Assembly: GCF_009762795.1 (NCBI RefSeq)
Contig: NZ_CP046400.1
Location: forward strand, 1,589,501 to 1,653,500
Direction: 5' to 3'
DNA: 64,000 nucleotides
DNA from: Pseudodesulfovibrio cashew
GTDB lineage: Bacteria > Desulfobacterota > Desulfovibrionia > Desulfovibrionales > Desulfovibrionaceae
The notes under the pieces were generated by a model. It was not told the origin of the DNA and did not search any database. It saw only the letters and a list, made by a program, of their open reading frames with translations. Position 1 is the first letter of the stretch. Each line of letters opens with the position of its first letter. This document shows positions 4,759 through 28,997 of the stretch, in pieces. The translations under genes were made by a program, and so were the position numbers.

Positions 4759-7041
4759 ATGGCTGAAAAGCTTGGAGTATATATCTGTGGAGGTTGCGAC
4801 ATCGGTGACAACATCGACGTCGCTGCGTTGGCCGAATTCGCTGCCAACGGCAAACACTCCTCCTGCGTGACCGTGGCCAAGTCTACCCCGGTGCTGTGCA
4901 GCCCCGAGGGCAAGGCCATGATCGAGGCCGACATCAAGGAACAAGGACTCGACGGCGTGGTCTGCTGCGCCTGTACCCCGCGCTCCAAGTGGGATGTGTT
5001 CAAGTTCGGCGATGCCATCCAGGTGGAACGCGTCTCCCTGCGCGAGCAGTGCGTGTGGTCCTACCAGGAAGATCCCAAATTCCCTGGCCAGATGGAAATC
5101 ATCGCCAAGGATTATGTCAATATGGGAATCACCAAGCTGTTCAACAGCCGGATTCCCCAGCCGGAACTGCCGGACGCTTTCAAGACCGTACTGGTCATGG
5201 GCGGCGGCTTCACCGGCATGAAGGCGGCCCTGAATGCCGCAGCCCTGGGCTACGAAGTGGTCCTGGTCGAAAAGGACGAGACTCTGGGCGGCAAGGCCGC
5301 GACCATGTACAAGTCCTTCCCCTTGGGCGCCCCCTTCAGCGACCGTGAACAGGAAATCGGCATCGACGCCCTGATCAAGGAAGTCGAAGCCAACGACAAG
5401 ATCAAGATCATCACCGGCGCCACCCTGGATTCCCTGGCCGGCGCTCCCGCCAAGTACAAGGCCACTATCGGTGGAACCGAGTACGAGATCGGCGCGGTTG
5501 TCATGGCCACCGGCTGGGTGCCCGGCAAGGGCAAGTTCCTGGCCCCGCTCGGCTACGGCGAGATCAAGAACGTTGTCACCACCGCCGAGTTCGAGAAGAT
5601 GGCTGCCAACGGCGGCATCAAGATGGCCAACGGCCAGGCTCCCGACTCCGTGGCCTTCATCGTCGACACCTCCCTGCTCACCAAGAACGTCTCCTACGAC
5701 GCCTGCGGCGAAGCCTGCGAGGCCCCCGAGGACATGCCCTGCAAGGAAGGCGACGAAAGCGAAAGCGCTGAAGAGTGCGAAGTCTTCGATTACGCCGACA
5801 AGGAGTCCGCAAAGCACCTGGCCTACAGCTCGGAGCTGACCTCCCTGATCGCCCTGAAGCAGGCCAATTACGTCCGCGAGCTCGCTCCCGAGGCCGTTGC
5901 CTACGTTGTCTACGACCACATGATGGTCCCGGGCATCAACGAGAAATACTACCAGGCGGCCCAGGACGATCCGGGCGTCATGCTGACCAAGGGCACCGTC
6001 ACCGGTGTCAAGGAAGCCGGCGCCAAGATCCTGATCTCCGCCAAGGATACTCTGCTTGGCGCCGAGGTGGAACTGGCCGCTGACATGGTTGTCCTTCCGA
6101 CCGCCATCGTGCCCACCACTGCCGCTAATCCGACCATGAACTTCGTCTACCGCCAGGGCCCGGCCTTCCCGGATCTGGAGCTGTTCGACGGGTTCGCCGA
6201 TTCCAACTACATCTGCTTCCCCTACGAAACCCGCCGCACGGGCGTCTACGCCGCCGGTTGCGTGCGCCAGCCCATGGGCCTGGGTCTCGCTGCGGAAGAC
6301 GCTGCCGGTGCCGCCCTCAAGGCGATCCAGTGCATCGAGTCCGCCAACCGCGGCGTGTCCGTGCACCCGCGCTCCGGCGACCTGAGCTTCCCCGAGTTCA
6401 ACTTCATGCGCTGTACTCAGTGTAAGCGCTGTACCGAAGAGTGCCCGTTCGGCGCCCTGGACGACGACGAGAAGGGTACGCCGCTTCCGAACCCCACGCG
6501 CTGCCGCCGCTGCGGTACCTGCATGGGCGCCTGTCCGGAACGCGTCATCAGCTTCGCCAACTACGGCATCAGCCAGATCGGCCAGGCCATCAAGGAAGTC
6601 AAGGTTCCCGACACCCTGGACGAGGGCGGTCCCCGCATCATCGTCCTGGCTTGCGAGAACGACGCCTACCCGGCCCTGGATATGGCTGCCATGCGCGGCA
6701 AGTCCTGGTCTCCCTACGTCCGTTTCCTGCCGGTCCGTTGTCTCGGTTCGGTCAACGCCATTTGGGTGGCTGACGCCATGTCCAAGGGTGTTGACGGCGT
6801 GATGATGCTCGGCTGCAAGTACGGCGACGACTACCAGTGCCACTTCGTCAAGGGTTCCGAGCTGTGTAACCGCCGTAAGGAGAACATCGCGGAGTCCCTG
6901 GGACGCCTCGGTGTGGAACCCGAGCGCGTCGAGCAGTACGAGGTCTCCATCGACATGTACGACAAGGTTCCGGCCCTGATCGACGAGTTCGTGGAGAACA
7001 TCACCACAAACTTCGGCCCCAACCCGTTCAAGGGCTACTAG
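4759..7041 (+). CDS. qmoB: Quinone-interacting membrane-bound oxidoreductase subunit B
   Basis: QmoB (760 aa) is the large HdrA-like flavoprotein of the Qmo complex. Domains in order: an N-terminal Cys-rich region with CxGCD and CCACTPR motifs; an FAD domain with VMGGGFTG near residue 145; two ferredoxin-type [4Fe-4S] motifs, Cys552/555/558/562 and Cys582/585/588/592; and a C-terminal MvhD/FlpD-like domain (from about residue 630) with the VRCLGS and GCKYGDDYQCH Cys motifs. That C-terminal domain is a hydrogenase/heterodisulfide-reductase electron-entry module and is a known feature of QmoB. The start ATG follows AGGGAGGT located inside the end of qmoA, three bases after its stop. Confidence 0.95.
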   Translation: MAEKLGVYICGGCDIGDNIDVAALAEFAANGKHSSCVTVAKSTPVLCSPEGKAMIEADIKEQGLDGVVCCACTPRSKWDVFKFGDAIQVERVSLREQCVWSYQEDPKFPGQMEIIAKDYVNMGITKLFNSRIPQPELPDAFKTVLVMGGGFTGMKAALNAAALGYEVVLVEKDETLGGKAATMYKSFPLGAPFSDREQEIGIDALIKEVEANDKIKIITGATLDSLAGAPAKYKATIGGTEYEIGAVVMATGWVPGKGKFLAPLGYGEIKNVVTTAEFEKMAANGGIKMANGQAPDSVAFIVDTSLLTKNVSYDACGEACEAPEDMPCKEGDESESAEECEVFDYADKESAKHLAYSSELTSLIALKQANYVRELAPEAVAYVVYDHMMVPGINEKYYQAAQDDPGVMLTKGTVTGVKEAGAKILISAKDTLLGAEVELAADMVVLPTAIVPTTAANPTMNFVYRQGPAFPDLELFDGFADSNYICFPYETRRTGVYAAGCVRQPMGLGLAAEDAAGAALKAIQCIESANRGVSVHPRSGDLSFPEFNFMRCTQCKRCTEECPFGALDDDEKGTPLPNPTRCRRCGTCMGACPERVISFANYGISQIGQAIKEVKVPDTLDEGGPRIIVLACENDAYPALDMAAMRGKSWSPYVRFLPVRCLGSVNAIWVADAMSKGVDGVMMLGCKYGDDYQCHFVKGSELCNRRKENIAESLGRLGVEPERVEQYEVSIDMYDKVPALIDEFVENITTNFGPNPFKGY

Positions 7042-10616: not shown

Positions 10617-12173
10617 CTAGCTACGCATGCCGTTCATCACTTTGTGCAGCTCGCCGGCCAGGCGGGCGAGGTCGGCGACGGCTTCGGCCGACTCATGCAT
10701 GGCGCGCGAGGTTTCGTCCGCCGCCACGTTGATCTCACTGGTTGATCTGGAGATTTCCTCACTGGCGGCAGACTGCTGTTCCGCGGCTGCCGCGATGGAG
10801 CGGACGTTGTCCGAGGTCTGGCCGGAGAGGTCTACAATGGTCGCCAGCGCCTGCCCGGCCTTGCCCACCGTTTCCACTGTGGTCGCGACCACGCCGACGG
10901 TATCCTTCGTGGAGGCCACGTTGGCCTCGGCCGAGAGTTGGATGGCGCGGATGTTGTCCTCCACGTTCTTAGTGGCGTCCATGGTTTTTTCAGCGAGTTT
11001 GCGCACCTCGTCGGCTACAACGGCAAACCCTCGCCCCGCATCGCCCGCCCGAGCGGCCTCGATGGCGGCGTTGAGAGCCAGCAGGTTGGTCTGGTCCGCG
11101 ATGTCGGAGATGACGTGCATGATGCCGCCGATGGAGTCGGCCTGCTTGCCCAGTGCGTCCATGTCCTCGGCCAGCTTGGCTGCCTGGCTCTCCAGGAAGG
11201 AGATTCCCTTCACTGCTTCGTCCACGATCCGGGCCCCTTCTTCGGCCTCCTGCTTGGCCTGGGCGGAGATGTCGGAGGCGACAGAGGCGTTTCGCGCGAC
11301 TTCAATGACGGTGGCGTTCATCTCTTCAACGCTCACGGCCACTCCGGCTGTCAGCTGGCTGCTTTTCTCGCTTGCCTGTGAGGAGTGCTCCACCTGTGAT
11401 GAAATCTGTTCGGAAGCGGACGCTAGCTGATTCGAAATGGCGTCGGCCTGATTCACCGCCTCGGATATGGCCGTGTTCTGTGTCTGGAGGGCCTCTTCCT
11501 TCTCCTTGAGGGCGGTCATGTCCAGATAGAGGCAGAAGCCGCCCAGACACTCCCCGTGATCGTTTCTGAGGGCGTAGACGTTGGCGAGGACATGGTGGGT
11601 CCCGCCCTTGTGCCCCTGGATGGTGACCTCCAGGTTGCGGAAGGTTTGGCCCTGATGCATGGCCTTGCCCACTGCGGTTTCACGGCTGGGGTCATTGTAG
11701 AAGATTTCCGCGAGGGTCCGGCCCAGCTGTTTCTCCACCGGGCCGTCCACTTCAACCATATCCAGGGTCGCCTGGTTGGTGAAGAGGGTGCGCTCCTCGG
11801 GATCGACGAGCAGGAAGGGCATGGGCAGTCCTTCGATGATTCCTTCCGCCAAACCTTTGTACCGATCCAGCCCGCCTGCGAGTTGGCGCAGAGCTGCGGC
11901 GGTCGCCGGGTCTCCGGTTGCCGTGGAAAAATCCACAATTTCGCCTTTGGCGGCGTTATCGATGAGGGTTGCGAGCCGGGATTCGCCTCCCGTTTCGCCT
12001 TGGCGGATCAGGAGCAGGCAGAGCAGGGCGACCAGAGCCGTGGCCGCTCCTGCCGCCCAGATGGCAGCCGGAGATTCCGGGCCGAGAGCCTGACCTGCCG
12101 CGCTGGCGGCAATCGCAGTAATAATAACGGCAAACGCCGACGCAATGATACGCGTTGTGATGGACCTGTGCAT
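10617..12173 (-). CDS. Methyl-accepting chemotaxis protein with PAS domain
   Basis: A 518-residue chemoreceptor. Two hydrophobic segments near the N-terminus (about residues 7-28 and 38-60) bracket almost no periplasmic loop, so sensing is probably by the cytoplasmic PAS domain (about 115-215, with the [14 protein letters not shown] start). No HAMP domain is evident. The C-terminal half is an MCP coiled coil with the conserved hairpin tip ([18 protein letters not shown]), which binds CheA/CheW. There is no C-terminal CheR/CheB tether pentapeptide. I preferred ATG 12173 over GTG 12179 because GAGG lies five bases before it. Solitary gene; the ligand cannot be predicted. PAS receptors of this layout often sense redox or energy state (inference). 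Confidence 0.9.
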
Positions 12174-25755: not shown

Positions 25756-26517
25756 ATGGTTCAAGTTCACTTCATCGGCGCAGGGCCGGGCGATCCCGAA
25801 CTGGTCACAGTCAAGGGCCAGCGTTTGATTCGGGAGGCCGACCTGGTGCTCTATGCCGGTTCGCTGGTGCCTGCGGAGGTCGTGGCCTGTGCGCGTGATG
25901 ACGCCAAGGTGGCGGACTCCGCGCCGCTGAATCTGGAGGAGACCCACGCGCTGATCATGGAGACCGTGCGCGCGGGCGGCACCGTGGCCCGGGTGCATAC
26001 GGGCGATCCGTCACTCTACGGGGCCATCCGGGAGCAGATGGCTCTTTTGGACGGCGAGGGCGTCGAATACGTCGTGGTGCCGGGCGTTACCGCCGGATTC
26101 GCGGCGGCGGCCTCGGCCTGCCGCTCCTTCACCGTGCCCGAGGTCACCCAGACCCTGATTTTCACCCGCCTGGCCGGGCGCACCCCGGTGCCCGAGGCCG
26201 AGGCGCTGCGCAAGCTGGCGGCCCACGGTACGGCCCTGTGCGTCTATCTCTCTGCGGGCGACCCCGAGGGCATCCAGCGCGAGCTTGAAGCGGGCGGCCT
26301 GGCCGCGTCCACATTGGTGGTCATGGCCTACCGCGTGGGCTGGCCCGAGGAGAAGATCGTGGAGACCGAACTTGCCGAACTGGCAGCCACGGCGCGGGAG
26401 CACGAGTTCACCCGCCAGACCGTGTTCCTGGTCCTGCCGGGCCAGGGCAGGGAGGACGCAGGAGAGGCTAGGTCCCTGCTCTACGACGAGAATTTCAAGC
26501 ACATGTACCGCAAGTAG
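25756..26517 (+). CDS. cobM: Precorrin-4 C11-methyltransferase (CobM/CbiF)
   Basis: SAM-dependent uroporphyrinogen/tetrapyrrole methylase that adds the C11 methyl group to the corrin ring of vitamin B12; in an anaerobe the equivalent step uses cobalt-precorrin-4 (CbiF). 253 residues. Signature VHFIGAGPGDPELVTVKG at the start, VHTGDPSLYGAIREQ, and VVPGVTAGFAAAA are typical. No other corrin genes are in the window. It directly follows the exonuclease stop and precedes the broken yjbQ by eight bases, which suggests an original exonuclease-cobM-yjbQ operon. Confidence 0.93.
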   Translation: MVQVHFIGAGPGDPELVTVKGQRLIREADLVLYAGSLVPAEVVACARDDAKVADSAPLNLEETHALIMETVRAGGTVARVHTGDPSLYGAIREQMALLDGEGVEYVVVPGVTAGFAAAASACRSFTVPEVTQTLIFTRLAGRTPVPEAEALRKLAAHGTALCVYLSAGDPEGIQRELEAGGLAASTLVVMAYRVGWPEEKIVETELAELAATAREHEFTRQTVFLVLPGQGREDAGEARSLLYDENFKHMYRK

Positions 26518-26525
26518 GGGGAACC

Positions 26526-26660
26526 ATGGAACGGATCGAAATCCGCACCCACGCCCGCGAGGAAATGGTCGGCCGTACGCCGCTGCGTCAACGGGAACGG
26601 CTGGTCCTACGGTGCGCTCCTGCGTTACTGCCCGCACACCACCGGGCCGTCATGGTTTAG
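26526..26660 (+). pseudogene. yjbQ: Truncated, frameshifted yjbQ remnant
   Basis: ATG 26526 follows cobM by eight bases behind GGGGGA. Frame 1 reads MERIEIRTHAREEMV, matching the N-terminus of the intact YjbQ at 28157 (MEHLQISTHAREEMV). The match then jumps to the +1 frame from 26572 (AVRRCVNGNGWSYGALL, then YCPHTTG). Compared with the intact gene, 11 bases are missing at the junction (after GTCG). The match stops near 26652, so only about the first third of the gene survives. Nucleotide identity over the aligned parts is about 83% by hand count, so this is a diverged copy and not a fresh duplicate. Confidence 0.85.
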
Positions 26661-26695
26661 GTGGACAACTAGCAATACTTAAAGGGAGATCGACC

Positions 26696-28081
26696 ATGAA
26701 ACAACCTCTAACAGGAGGGGAGCTGGTAGCCTCGCAAAAGCAGGTGAGGACGTTGGGTGTCATACGCGCGAGTCTGCACAATGGTCGTGAATCAGACGTG
26801 TTGCACCTTGAAAGAATCGCCGAAACGCTGAGTAAGGCGAAAAGCGTAGAAGCTGTTGTCCTGGCTATGCCCGACGATGACTACCATGCCTCACTTTCTC
26901 GCGAACTGACGTTTTGTGAAATCTTCCTGGGCGACGTCGAAAATATGAACAATCGTCTCCTTGAGGCAGCAAGAAGTCAGGGTGCGTCTTGTCTTGTCGA
27001 TTGTTCCTTGTTGACCCAGTGTTTGGACCCGCATCTTTATGACGAGTTGGTCGATTATCACAACGCCTCGCCCGGCAGCATGACGAGGCCCAGTTTATGG
27101 TATCCGGAATATTTGCCCAACGTGGTGGATGTCGACACTCTGTCCACGATTACAGAAGAGTACAGCTGGCCCTATTACTCTCATGTGTCTGAGGCGCATA
27201 TTAATTACTATACACCCAATTTGGACAAAATTACTCATTTGTTCAGTCATCTCAACCCGATTTGCCAAGAGCTGGTCATCCATAAGGGCAGACAGCTTCG
27301 AAATTCCATGAATCTGGCCGTTCATCCCTATGACCCTGTCAATTGGGCCTCCCGATGTGCTTCCCTTTTGCCAAAGATAGAGAATTTGTTTCACAAACGG
27401 TCCGTCTCCGTGCTTGAGGTTGGGTGCGGCAGACGTTTTGGCTTGGGAATCCTGTTGCGGATGGCTGGAATTGCCCAATATTCCGGGATTGATCTCAACC
27501 TTCCCCCCCTCTCCGACGAGCAACTCGAATTTTTTGAAGAGTGGTTGTCTTTCAATCAACAAGCAGCCCCCATTTCCGGAATGTCCATGGAGCCGATAGT
27601 CAGAGATGAATGCAGCCAGGGTGGGTATTCCTTTTTCGAAGGCTCAGTGCAGCTGCGAGCTATGGACGCATGCGCTCTTGAATTTGAAGACAATTCATTT
27701 GATTTGATTTTCTCCGATGCTGTGCTTGAGCACATCGCCCCCTGCAAGTCGGCGATCAAAGAGATGTACAGAGTTCTAAAGCCCGGAGGTTTTGCCGTTC
27801 ATGGGATCGATTTCAAGGATCATATGACAAAAGATGGCGATAGCCATCTCTATGTCTCCAAAAAGGAGTGGCATGAGAAGCATCGATCGCGACTCATTAA
27901 TTTGTCACGGCCGGCTGAGATGTATTCGTGGTTTTCAGAGGTCGGTTTCCATTTCCTGTCTATCTCCGAGGATAAATTTACCGAAGCCGACAGTTCTCAA
28001 ATTCATGCTGACCACCTGGCTTTTGGCGTGTCAGATGCGCTGACGCATGCTTCGCATGTGGTCATGCAAAAAGCCGGGTAA
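26696..28081 (+). CDS. SpsF-like (degenerate cytidylyltransferase) - SAM methyltransferase fusion
   Basis: 461 residues in two parts. Residues about 15-165 resemble the SpsF/NeuA-type cytidylyltransferase fold: VVLAMPDDD, then DVENMNNRLLEAA from Asp80, and a DCSLLTQCLDPHLYDELVDYH stretch equivalent to the family DCPLIDP motif. The N-terminal catalytic signature (QARMGSTRLPGK in SpsF) is replaced by VIRASLHNGRES, so this half may be inactive. Residues about 235-400 are a class I methyltransferase: VLEVGCG at 239-245, an LEFEDNSFDLIFSDAVLEH segment, and MYRVLKPGGF. The gene is clearly AT-richer than its neighbours. Start ATG 26696 follows GGGAG. Surface-glycan or nucleotide-sugar modification is a plausible role (inference). 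Confidence 0.8.
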   Translation: MKQPLTGGELVASQKQVRTLGVIRASLHNGRESDVLHLERIAETLSKAKSVEAVVLAMPDDDYHASLSRELTFCEIFLGDVENMNNRLLEAARSQGASCLVDCSLLTQCLDPHLYDELVDYHNASPGSMTRPSLWYPEYLPNVVDVDTLSTITEEYSWPYYSHVSEAHINYYTPNLDKITHLFSHLNPICQELVIHKGRQLRNSMNLAVHPYDPVNWASRCASLLPKIENLFHKRSVSVLEVGCGRRFGLGILLRMAGIAQYSGIDLNLPPLSDEQLEFFEEWLSFNQQAAPISGMSMEPIVRDECSQGGYSFFEGSVQLRAMDACALEFEDNSFDLIFSDAVLEHIAPCKSAIKEMYRVLKPGGFAVHGIDFKDHMTKDGDSHLYVSKKEWHEKHRSRLINLSRPAEMYSWFSEVGFHFLSISEDKFTEADSSQIHADHLAFGVSDALTHASHVVMQKAG

Positions 28082-28156
28082 GCGCAGAATCCCTTAATTG
28101 AAGCCTGGAATCGAGAACGCTCCGGTTTCTTGCGGATGAATACAGGAGGGGCAACA

Positions 28157-28552
28157 ATGGAACACCTGCAAATAAGCACCCACGCTCGCGAGGAAATGGT
28201 CGACATCACCACCGCCGTGCGTCGCCTCATCAACGAGAACGGCTGGTCCGACGGCGCACTGCTGCTCTACTGCCCGCACACTACCGGGGCCGTGACCATC
28301 AACGAAGGAGCCGACCCGGACGTGGTCCGCGACATCACGATGAACATGAACAAGCTGGTCCCGCACCGGGGCGACTACCGCCACGCCGAGGGCAACTCCG
28401 ACGCGCACATCAAATCCAGCATGTTCGGCTGCGACCAGATGGTCATCGTCGAGGGCGGCAATATCCAGCTCGGCACCTGGCAGAAAATCTACTTCTGCGA
28501 GTTCGACGGTCCGCGCACCCGCAAGCTGTGGGTAAAGTGGCTGGGAGCGTAG
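28157..28552 (+). CDS. yjbQ: YjbQ family protein (UPF0047), intact copy
   Basis: 131 residues, full length for the family. Typical stretches: LYCPHTTGAVTINEGAD, HRGDYRHAEGNSDAHIKSS and the VEGGNIQLGTWQKIYFCEFD tail, with several conserved His that may bind metal. E. coli YjbQ has a weak thiamine-phosphate-synthase activity, but the physiological role is not settled. Start ATG 28157 behind AGGAGGG. A diverged, broken copy lies at 26526 on the other side of the fusion gene. It converges with the small secreted protein gene, with only four bases between stops. Confidence 0.9.
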   Translation: MEHLQISTHAREEMVDITTAVRRLINENGWSDGALLLYCPHTTGAVTINEGADPDVVRDITMNMNKLVPHRGDYRHAEGNSDAHIKSSMFGCDQMVIVEGGNIQLGTWQKIYFCEFDGPRTRKLWVKWLGA

Positions 28553-28556
28553 CTTC

Positions 28557-28997
28557 CTACTTATCTAAATCAGCCCACTTGTCACTGAAGCTGATGTTTA
28601 ATGCAGTCCAATTTTGATCGGGTTTGCAGTATAAGAACGTGAAGAAGAGTGGTGTCTTCTCGGCGAAGACGATGTACGTCAACTTGACCACGGACTTCCC
28701 GTACTCTTTCCGGGCAGCTAATTCATACCGGATGCACTTCCCGACCATAGGCATCTGGGTTACGTACTGCCGCTTGGCAAGTTCAAGCTTGTCTGGGTCC
28801 ATCTGACTGGAGTCAAAGTCATCGAACCAAGTTTCAGCCATTTTGATGTACTCGCCTTTCAGCATGAGGTCGAAGCCAGCCTCTGCCATGCTTTCAGGAG
28901 TTGCCTCCGTCCAGTTTGCCGGAGTTCCGCTGTTTGCCGCTATAGCCGCGCTTGAGGCCATGAGAATGAAAGCCGTAATCGTCAGAATCCATTTCAT
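28557..28997 (-). CDS. Small secreted hypothetical protein
   Basis: 146 residues with a classical signal peptide (MKWILTITAFILMASSAAIA-A; cleavage probably after residue 20). The mature part is helical then beta, with two Cys (in GKCIRYE and LYCKPDQ) that could form a disulfide. The KGEYIKMAETWFDDF and YGKSVVKLTYIVF stretches suggest a small DUF3887/NTF2-like fold, but I do not recognise it firmly. The ribosome site AAGGA precedes ATG 28997. It stands alone, convergent with yjbQ, and is less GC-rich than the core genes. Confidence 0.75.
   Translation of the reverse strand: MKWILTITAFILMASSAAIAANSGTPANWTEATPESMAEAGFDLMLKGEYIKMAETWFDDFDSSQMDPDKLELAKRQYVTQMPMVGKCIRYELAARKEYGKSVVKLTYIVFAEKTPLFFTFLYCKPDQNWTALNISFSDKWADLDK

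Follow-up and report, generated by a model that had tools for sequence, protein, structure and literature searches.

Integrative islands that occupy a gene and repair it have been described in several forms. In dusA islands and prophages, as presented in the available text of PMC4482086, the original 5' end of the gene stays as the outer boundary while a new one comes from the island. The locus analysed here shares with them an insertion in a protein-coding gene and the same 5'-end arrangement, with the differences that its target is yjbQ rather than dusA, and that the dusA site has an integrase family of its own whereas the present insert has none. Islands in tRNA and tmRNA genes (Islander; available text of PMC4383910) split and restore their target, leaving the displaced fragment as a marker of the far end, a pattern also found in four of the genomes compared below (G013, G015, G020 and G101); they differ in that a protein gene is cut here, near its first third, and in that tyrosine integrases act there whereas a serine recombinase is found in genome G246. 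Large serine recombinase elements (available text of PMC10083194) resemble the island of G246 in having next to one end a recombinase of the usual domain make-up, a short identical centre in both junctions, a palindromic attP (by eye in G246) and a conserved target gene. Unlike the elements described in that text, G246 carries a complete replacement of the target gene just inside its left end.

The name UPF0047 has 0 occurrences in the available main text of PMC10083194, and yjbQ may be in its supplement. Literature searches returned no paper pairing "serine integrase" with yjbQ or UPF0047 with "integrase", target-survey supplements being outside their scope, and among the yjbQ literature, judged from titles and the starts of abstracts, none apparently concerns integration into yjbQ. 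Most likely, the kind of element is a known one and yjbQ is new among its target genes.

The yjbQ locus in the window

The window is a stretch of 64,000 nucleotides, positions 1589501-1653500 of a 3.91 Mb single-contig genome. Compared genomes are designated Gnnn and compared loci Lnnn, with G000 for the genome of the window. The features of the locus are as follows.

25756..26517, + strand: cobM (precorrin-4 C11-methyltransferase), the probable ancestral left neighbour of yjbQ; TIGR01465 297.5 bits, cut-off 259.65
26526..26651, + strand: yjbQ 5' fragment (BLAST) that covers codons 1-46 and has an 11-base deletion; under the proposed model, the host side of the junction
26652..28156, + strand: 1505-bp insert separating the fragment from the intact yjbQ, missing from the same place in 33 congeneric loci
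26658..26680, + strand: candidate for a decayed attachment arm (left end of insert); weak
26696..28081, + strand: fusion gene, 461 aa, cargo
28157..28552, + strand: intact (putatively restored) yjbQ, TIGR00149 152.1 bits; the shared breakpoint corresponds to 28294/28295

An earlier note on this DNA had described a broken yjbQ directly behind cobM and an intact copy after the fusion gene, and both observations hold, so that a complete target gene stands beside its displaced fragment. BLAST pairs yjbQ nt 1-137 with 26526-26650, and codon 46 (GTC) ends at 26651; homology thus runs through codon 46 (nt 137/138), and the last two thirds of the gene are missing. The identity of about 83% that the note had reached by hand, with one 11-base deletion and loss of the 3' two thirds, is close to the 85.5% measured over 110 aligned bases with 12 gapped columns, the 11-base gap included, and the local alignment score of 216 exceeds the maximum of 130 in 200 shuffles. 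The window was searched at 20000-60000 for a hidden yjbQ 3' piece. The highest scores, 46, 45 and 44, slightly exceed the 40 reached at most by 200 shuffles; these candidates were not accepted because their places are scattered and mostly on the other strand. The insert holds a single gene and no recombinase. Promoters and terminators did not exceed what shuffles gave. Right behind yjbQ, at 28557-28997 on the - strand, lies a small AT-rich gene (GC 0.497) with no family match at cut-offs, which is not part of the insert, since homologues occupy the same place in G028 (72%) and G005 (66%).

The earlier note called the fusion gene AT-rich, and its GC of 0.494 is indeed lower than that of any of the window's 52 crude ORF calls (mean 0.615); its GC3 is undercut or equalled by 2 of the 52. 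The C-terminal half of the protein is a SAM methyltransferase (Methyltransf_11, 3.8e-16), and the N-terminal 215 residues matched no Pfam family; a likeness of this part to SpsF-type nucleotidyltransferases, suggested by eye, found no support. A single-sequence structure model failed, with a mean pLDDT of 32.8. A first scan of genome contigs with the fusion protein gave no match. Of 348 genomes of the order, one besides G000 has a full-length homologue (38%), which lies at a different place.

The cobM-yjbQ slot in congeners

The genus set comprised 36 genomes, 35 of them with a yjbQ match, that of G022 being a distant paralogue only, and the yjbQ locus was compared in 33 congeners, which are species and not strains. 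cobM lies upstream of yjbQ in 32 of the 33 loci, at a distance of up to 60 bp in 21, of 61-500 bp in two and of more than 900 bp in nine. No match to the fusion gene was found at any of the 33 loci, the one match lying in a separate stretch (L098) of G019. The arrangement that the earlier note proposed to look for in relatives, cobM-yjbQ without the fusion gene, is present with a gap of up to 60 bp in 21 of 32 congeners, and an order of cobM, fusion gene and yjbQ with the same remnant is not what most of the 33 loci have. Since cobM and yjbQ adjoin in congeners and the fusion gene is absent there, the ancestral order was probably cobM-yjbQ; among the compared genomes, the insert is particular to the lineage of the window. 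Two genomes, G018 and G022, have no close cobM, and G022 is also without a close yjbQ while keeping the distant paralogue.

The nine wide gaps (L065, L070, L073, L074, L075, L079, L084, L085 and L089) contain other DNA of 1.0-3.1 kb and no accepted yjbQ fragment; the slot between cobM and yjbQ gains genes often. Hidden 5' yjbQ fragments were sought at 13 gapped loci other than the window. Scores against each locus's own gene were 18-29, against shuffle maxima of 27-45; with a panel of 110 genes and 20 shuffles, three loci came slightly above the null (L073, 36 against 34; L084, 47 against 45; L089, 50 against 42), all well inside inserted DNA and not accepted, compared with 146 for the window.

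A breakpoint shared among unrelated insertions

A wider sample of 112 loci from about 110 genomes was drawn from the 285 of 348 genomes of the order that have a yjbQ match at E 1e-10; the sample favours close matches because the choice followed the listing. Extra pieces of yjbQ occur in eight genomes among these loci, and in seven of them (G000, G013, G015, G020, G098, G101 and G246), with eight insertions in four genera, the break lies at or near the same point. Seven of the insertions, in the six genomes other than that of the window, carry other cargo than the window does. In G013, G015 and G020 an intact yjbQ is followed by unrelated genes and then by a yjbQ 3' piece; the cargo is a GGDEF protein in G013 and an AraC-type regulator with a short-chain dehydrogenase in G015, while G020 has two consecutive 3' pieces, both preceded by an RTX-repeat gene of their own. 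The inserts of the window, G013, G015 and G020 (twice) measure 1.0-2.7 kb and consist of one or two genes with no recombinase. The 3' pieces start at nt 139 in G013 and G246 and at nt 140 in G015 and, twice, in G020, next to the point at nt 137/138 where the window fragment ends. The piece of G098 starts at nt 136; that of G101 starts at nt 128 by BLAST, with similarity by eye from near 140. By a hand estimate, the chance that the five ends at 139-140 would fall within 3 nt is about (3/390)^4. That the breakpoint is common to other species was absent from the earlier note.

One might suppose that the window fragment has nothing to do with these insertions, being an independent gain in a gene-gaining slot whose breakpoint coincides through chance and decay. 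The nine of 32 congeners with gaps above 900 bp and no accepted yjbQ fragment fit such a history, as do the weak arm of the window and its junction, in which neither the CCATCAA core of G246 nor any core repeat was found. Against it, the insert begins exactly at the shared breakpoint, and an end within about 1 nt of that point would arise by chance in roughly 3 of 390 cases (hand estimate), so that we regard this history as very improbable. The breakpoint lies in a conserved part of the gene, codons 40-53 being 95.2% conserved in the genus against 85.2% overall, although other stretches are equally conserved.

As a control, direct repeats of >=60 bases at E 1e-12 were collected from the 1.80 Mb of the 112 loci. 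yjbQ was involved in 7 loci (L109 by contig-end assignment; G246 lay below the cut-off), and the other repeats were internal repeats, paralogues and, in several loci, a short repeat upstream of an exonuclease gene; no other gene recurred with its own fragment, as judged by reading the list. The exonuclease-associated direct repeat of about 70-130 bases, its copies a few kilobases apart, occurs in L065, L076, L077, L079 and L084, where Rfam gave no family at gathering scores. In L113 (G125), a repeat of about 106 bases (91.7%) lies directly behind yjbQ at 6892-6999 and again 4 kb downstream at 10895-11000, possibly as the ends of another insertion.

The eighth genome, G307, has the yjbQ 3' end and the bases following it duplicated locally (L107, 6479-6703 and 7728-7952, 92.9% alike, about 1 kb between), and is counted as another kind because its break lies at codon 81 and the repeat runs past the stop.

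The island of G246 and its kindred

G246 contains an island of 11 kb in which both pieces of the split yjbQ are present. The 5' piece reads ...GGGGGCCGTC ACCATCAA GAACGG... and shortly after it a whole yjbQ begins; at the other junction, 11 kb on, the sequence reads ...AATAGCA ACCATCAA CGAAGG... and resumes the 3' piece. The 8-bp core ACCATCAA, equal to yjbQ nt 139-146, is therefore present at both junctions inside the target gene. A frame of 612 aa with PF00239 (Resolvase), PF07508 (Recombinase) and PF13408 (zinc-ribbon) domains, classified as PHROG 95 integrase, abuts the 3' piece, and the end halves, when joined, give GGGTAT...ATACCC, palindromic by eye as expected of a serine-recombinase attP. 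The cargo includes type I restriction genes. G098 follows the same plan with thymidylate-synthase-like and 5-hmdU-DNA-kinase-like genes, and G101 follows it over three contigs with cargo that by eye consists of probable chromate genes.

Relatives of the G246 recombinase were found in 22 of 348 genomes of the order (E 1e-30) and in 3 of 395 genomes of the phylum (E 1e-60). A yjbQ piece beside such a relative was seen in G246 only among 30 loci of the order, and in none of 8 further loci. In L134 (G064), a relative (55%) stands against sequence that by eye resembles a gene of the comM/yifB type. In the genus of the window, PF07508 is matched in 12 of 36 genomes, with no match in the whole of G000, in G015 or in G020 (87% complete), and with one match in G013, elsewhere in the genome.

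Putative attachment arms

The cargo ends that touch the 3' pieces (G013, G015, twice G020, and G246) are alike outside the core, with 85 of 180 pairwise matches, whereas 0 of 20,000 draws made at random within these inserts came as high; when one G020 arm is omitted, p=0.00035. The test is partly after the fact because the likeness was first spotted by eye. The cargo ends of three congeners thus resemble the attachment arm of G246 above random draws. They are not decayed yjbQ, with only 1-4 of 18 matches to the yjbQ sequence at that place. The P arm of G098, which was left out of the test, does not look alike. Compared with six arms at the predicted offset, the left end of the window insert scores 42 of 108 (p=0.022 within the insert), and an unrelated nearby offset scores 40, so that the match is suggestive only.

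These ends bear on a different origin of the insertions, namely one-sided homologous recombination in yjbQ, with the other end joined illegitimately at random and a partial copy left behind. Such a single process would give both the 5'- and the 3'-piece types, and it suits the small size of most inserts, their lack of recombinases and the closeness, within the genus, of the pieces to the intact yjbQ of the same genome. In its simple form it predicts scattered ends, against the five 3' ends in four genomes at nt 139-140, and random capture predicts neither alike cargo ends nor what G246 shows, namely a core repeat, a palindrome and a recombinase. In a variant, a sequence-specific double-strand break in yjbQ, mended by the same process, would yield a constant breakpoint without a recombinase. 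We consider recombination of this sort unlikely, if worth keeping in view.

Origin of the yjbQ copies

The two pieces in G246 share 90.4% and 88.1% identity with the yjbQ of a congener, G238, to which they are sister (support 100/93 and 100/80), whereas the two parts of its whole yjbQ reach at most 74.6% and 80.7%, best to species of the window's genus. It is therefore safe to say, on these sequence comparisons, that the whole copy is of another lineage than the host pieces. An origin in another genus is not safe, since the 5' tree groups the intact copy, unstarred (86/86), with two further species of the genus to which G246 belongs. In G098 the 3' piece is sister to the congener G097 (99/99), and the 5' piece groups with another genus (91/71). 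The pieces of G013, G015 and G020 are sister to the intact yjbQ of the same genome (96/93, 99/97 and 100/98), which would imply replacement from close kin, gene conversion or a local origin.

In the window, neither the fragment nor the intact copy is placed with support in the yjbQ trees; the 5' part of the intact copy joins the intact copy of G098 (89/86) on a long branch, unstarred. A foreign origin of the intact yjbQ was considered and not accepted, its 3' part (90.4% to G032) being ordinary for the genus and no tree place being starred. A phage or plasmid source was likewise set aside, the 8 phage-record and 67 plasmid matches all being below 60% identity, and viral contigs held no relative of yjbQ or of the G246 recombinase. 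The proposal of a cassette arriving with its own yjbQ consequently stands in part: an acquired island that renews yjbQ is the best reading, because other insertions lie at the same point of the gene, while the foreign nature of the intact copy is unsupported.

The fragment is nearest to its own intact copy (85.5%, against 83.6% for G013). This would suit a local duplication of yjbQ, in which the fusion gene landed later between the copies and the first copy decayed, and local partial duplication does occur, as in G307. Such a course leaves unexplained that the fragment ends where unrelated insertions break yjbQ elsewhere, and the pieces of G246 and G098 are not sister to the neighbouring intact copy; we think it quite improbable.

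Proposed mechanism

The comparison establishes that the breakpoint is shared, that in G246 the gene is split and replaced and a recombinase gene abuts it, and that other insertions have similar cargo ends. Our preferred explanation, which we hold to be probable, is that yjbQ in this family serves as attB for integrative islands that restore the gene and that the window records such an event. Crossover would take place within yjbQ nt 138-147, in the conserved HTTGAVTINEG segment, so that integration would cut the host gene after about codon 46. The island would bring yjbQ sequence, either the whole gene or a new end, and a full copy would be restored behind the host operon, by which the host would keep the enzyme.

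Three outcomes are observed: the whole gene is brought (G246, G098), the gene is restored with a 3' remnant (G013, G015, G020, G101), or it is restored with a 5' remnant (the window). The 3'- and 5'-remnant outcomes may be original designs, or may stem from recombination between repeated pieces of the whole-gene type. The window, with a host 5' fragment, one acquired gene and a putatively restored yjbQ, most likely contains a site-specific island, small or reduced, that sits in yjbQ and renews it. A small island may have provided a new 5' end, as happens at dusA, or a larger island may have kept its left part and lost the right one when yjbQ copies recombined. We infer that the insertion was the work of a large serine recombinase and that it brought the fusion gene with it.

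A more speculative possibility, in our judgement distinctly unlikely, is that the small inserts without a recombinase are non-autonomous cassettes that dock at yjbQ codon 46/47 through serine-recombinase-like arms, carry yjbQ sequence with which the entered gene is repaired, and can stack in tandem, as in G020, much like integron cassettes with a housekeeping gene as their platform.

Significance

If integration into yjbQ is the right explanation, the gene of a conserved enzyme joins the list of integration targets, and the breakpoint would offer a nearly nucleotide-exact marker for finding islands in this family. The cargo at the one site is varied, comprising type I restriction, DNA-hypermodification-like, RTX-repeat, GGDEF, regulator with dehydrogenase, probable chromate (by eye) and methyltransferase-fusion genes. 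The recombinase of G246 and its predicted sites are open to direct test.
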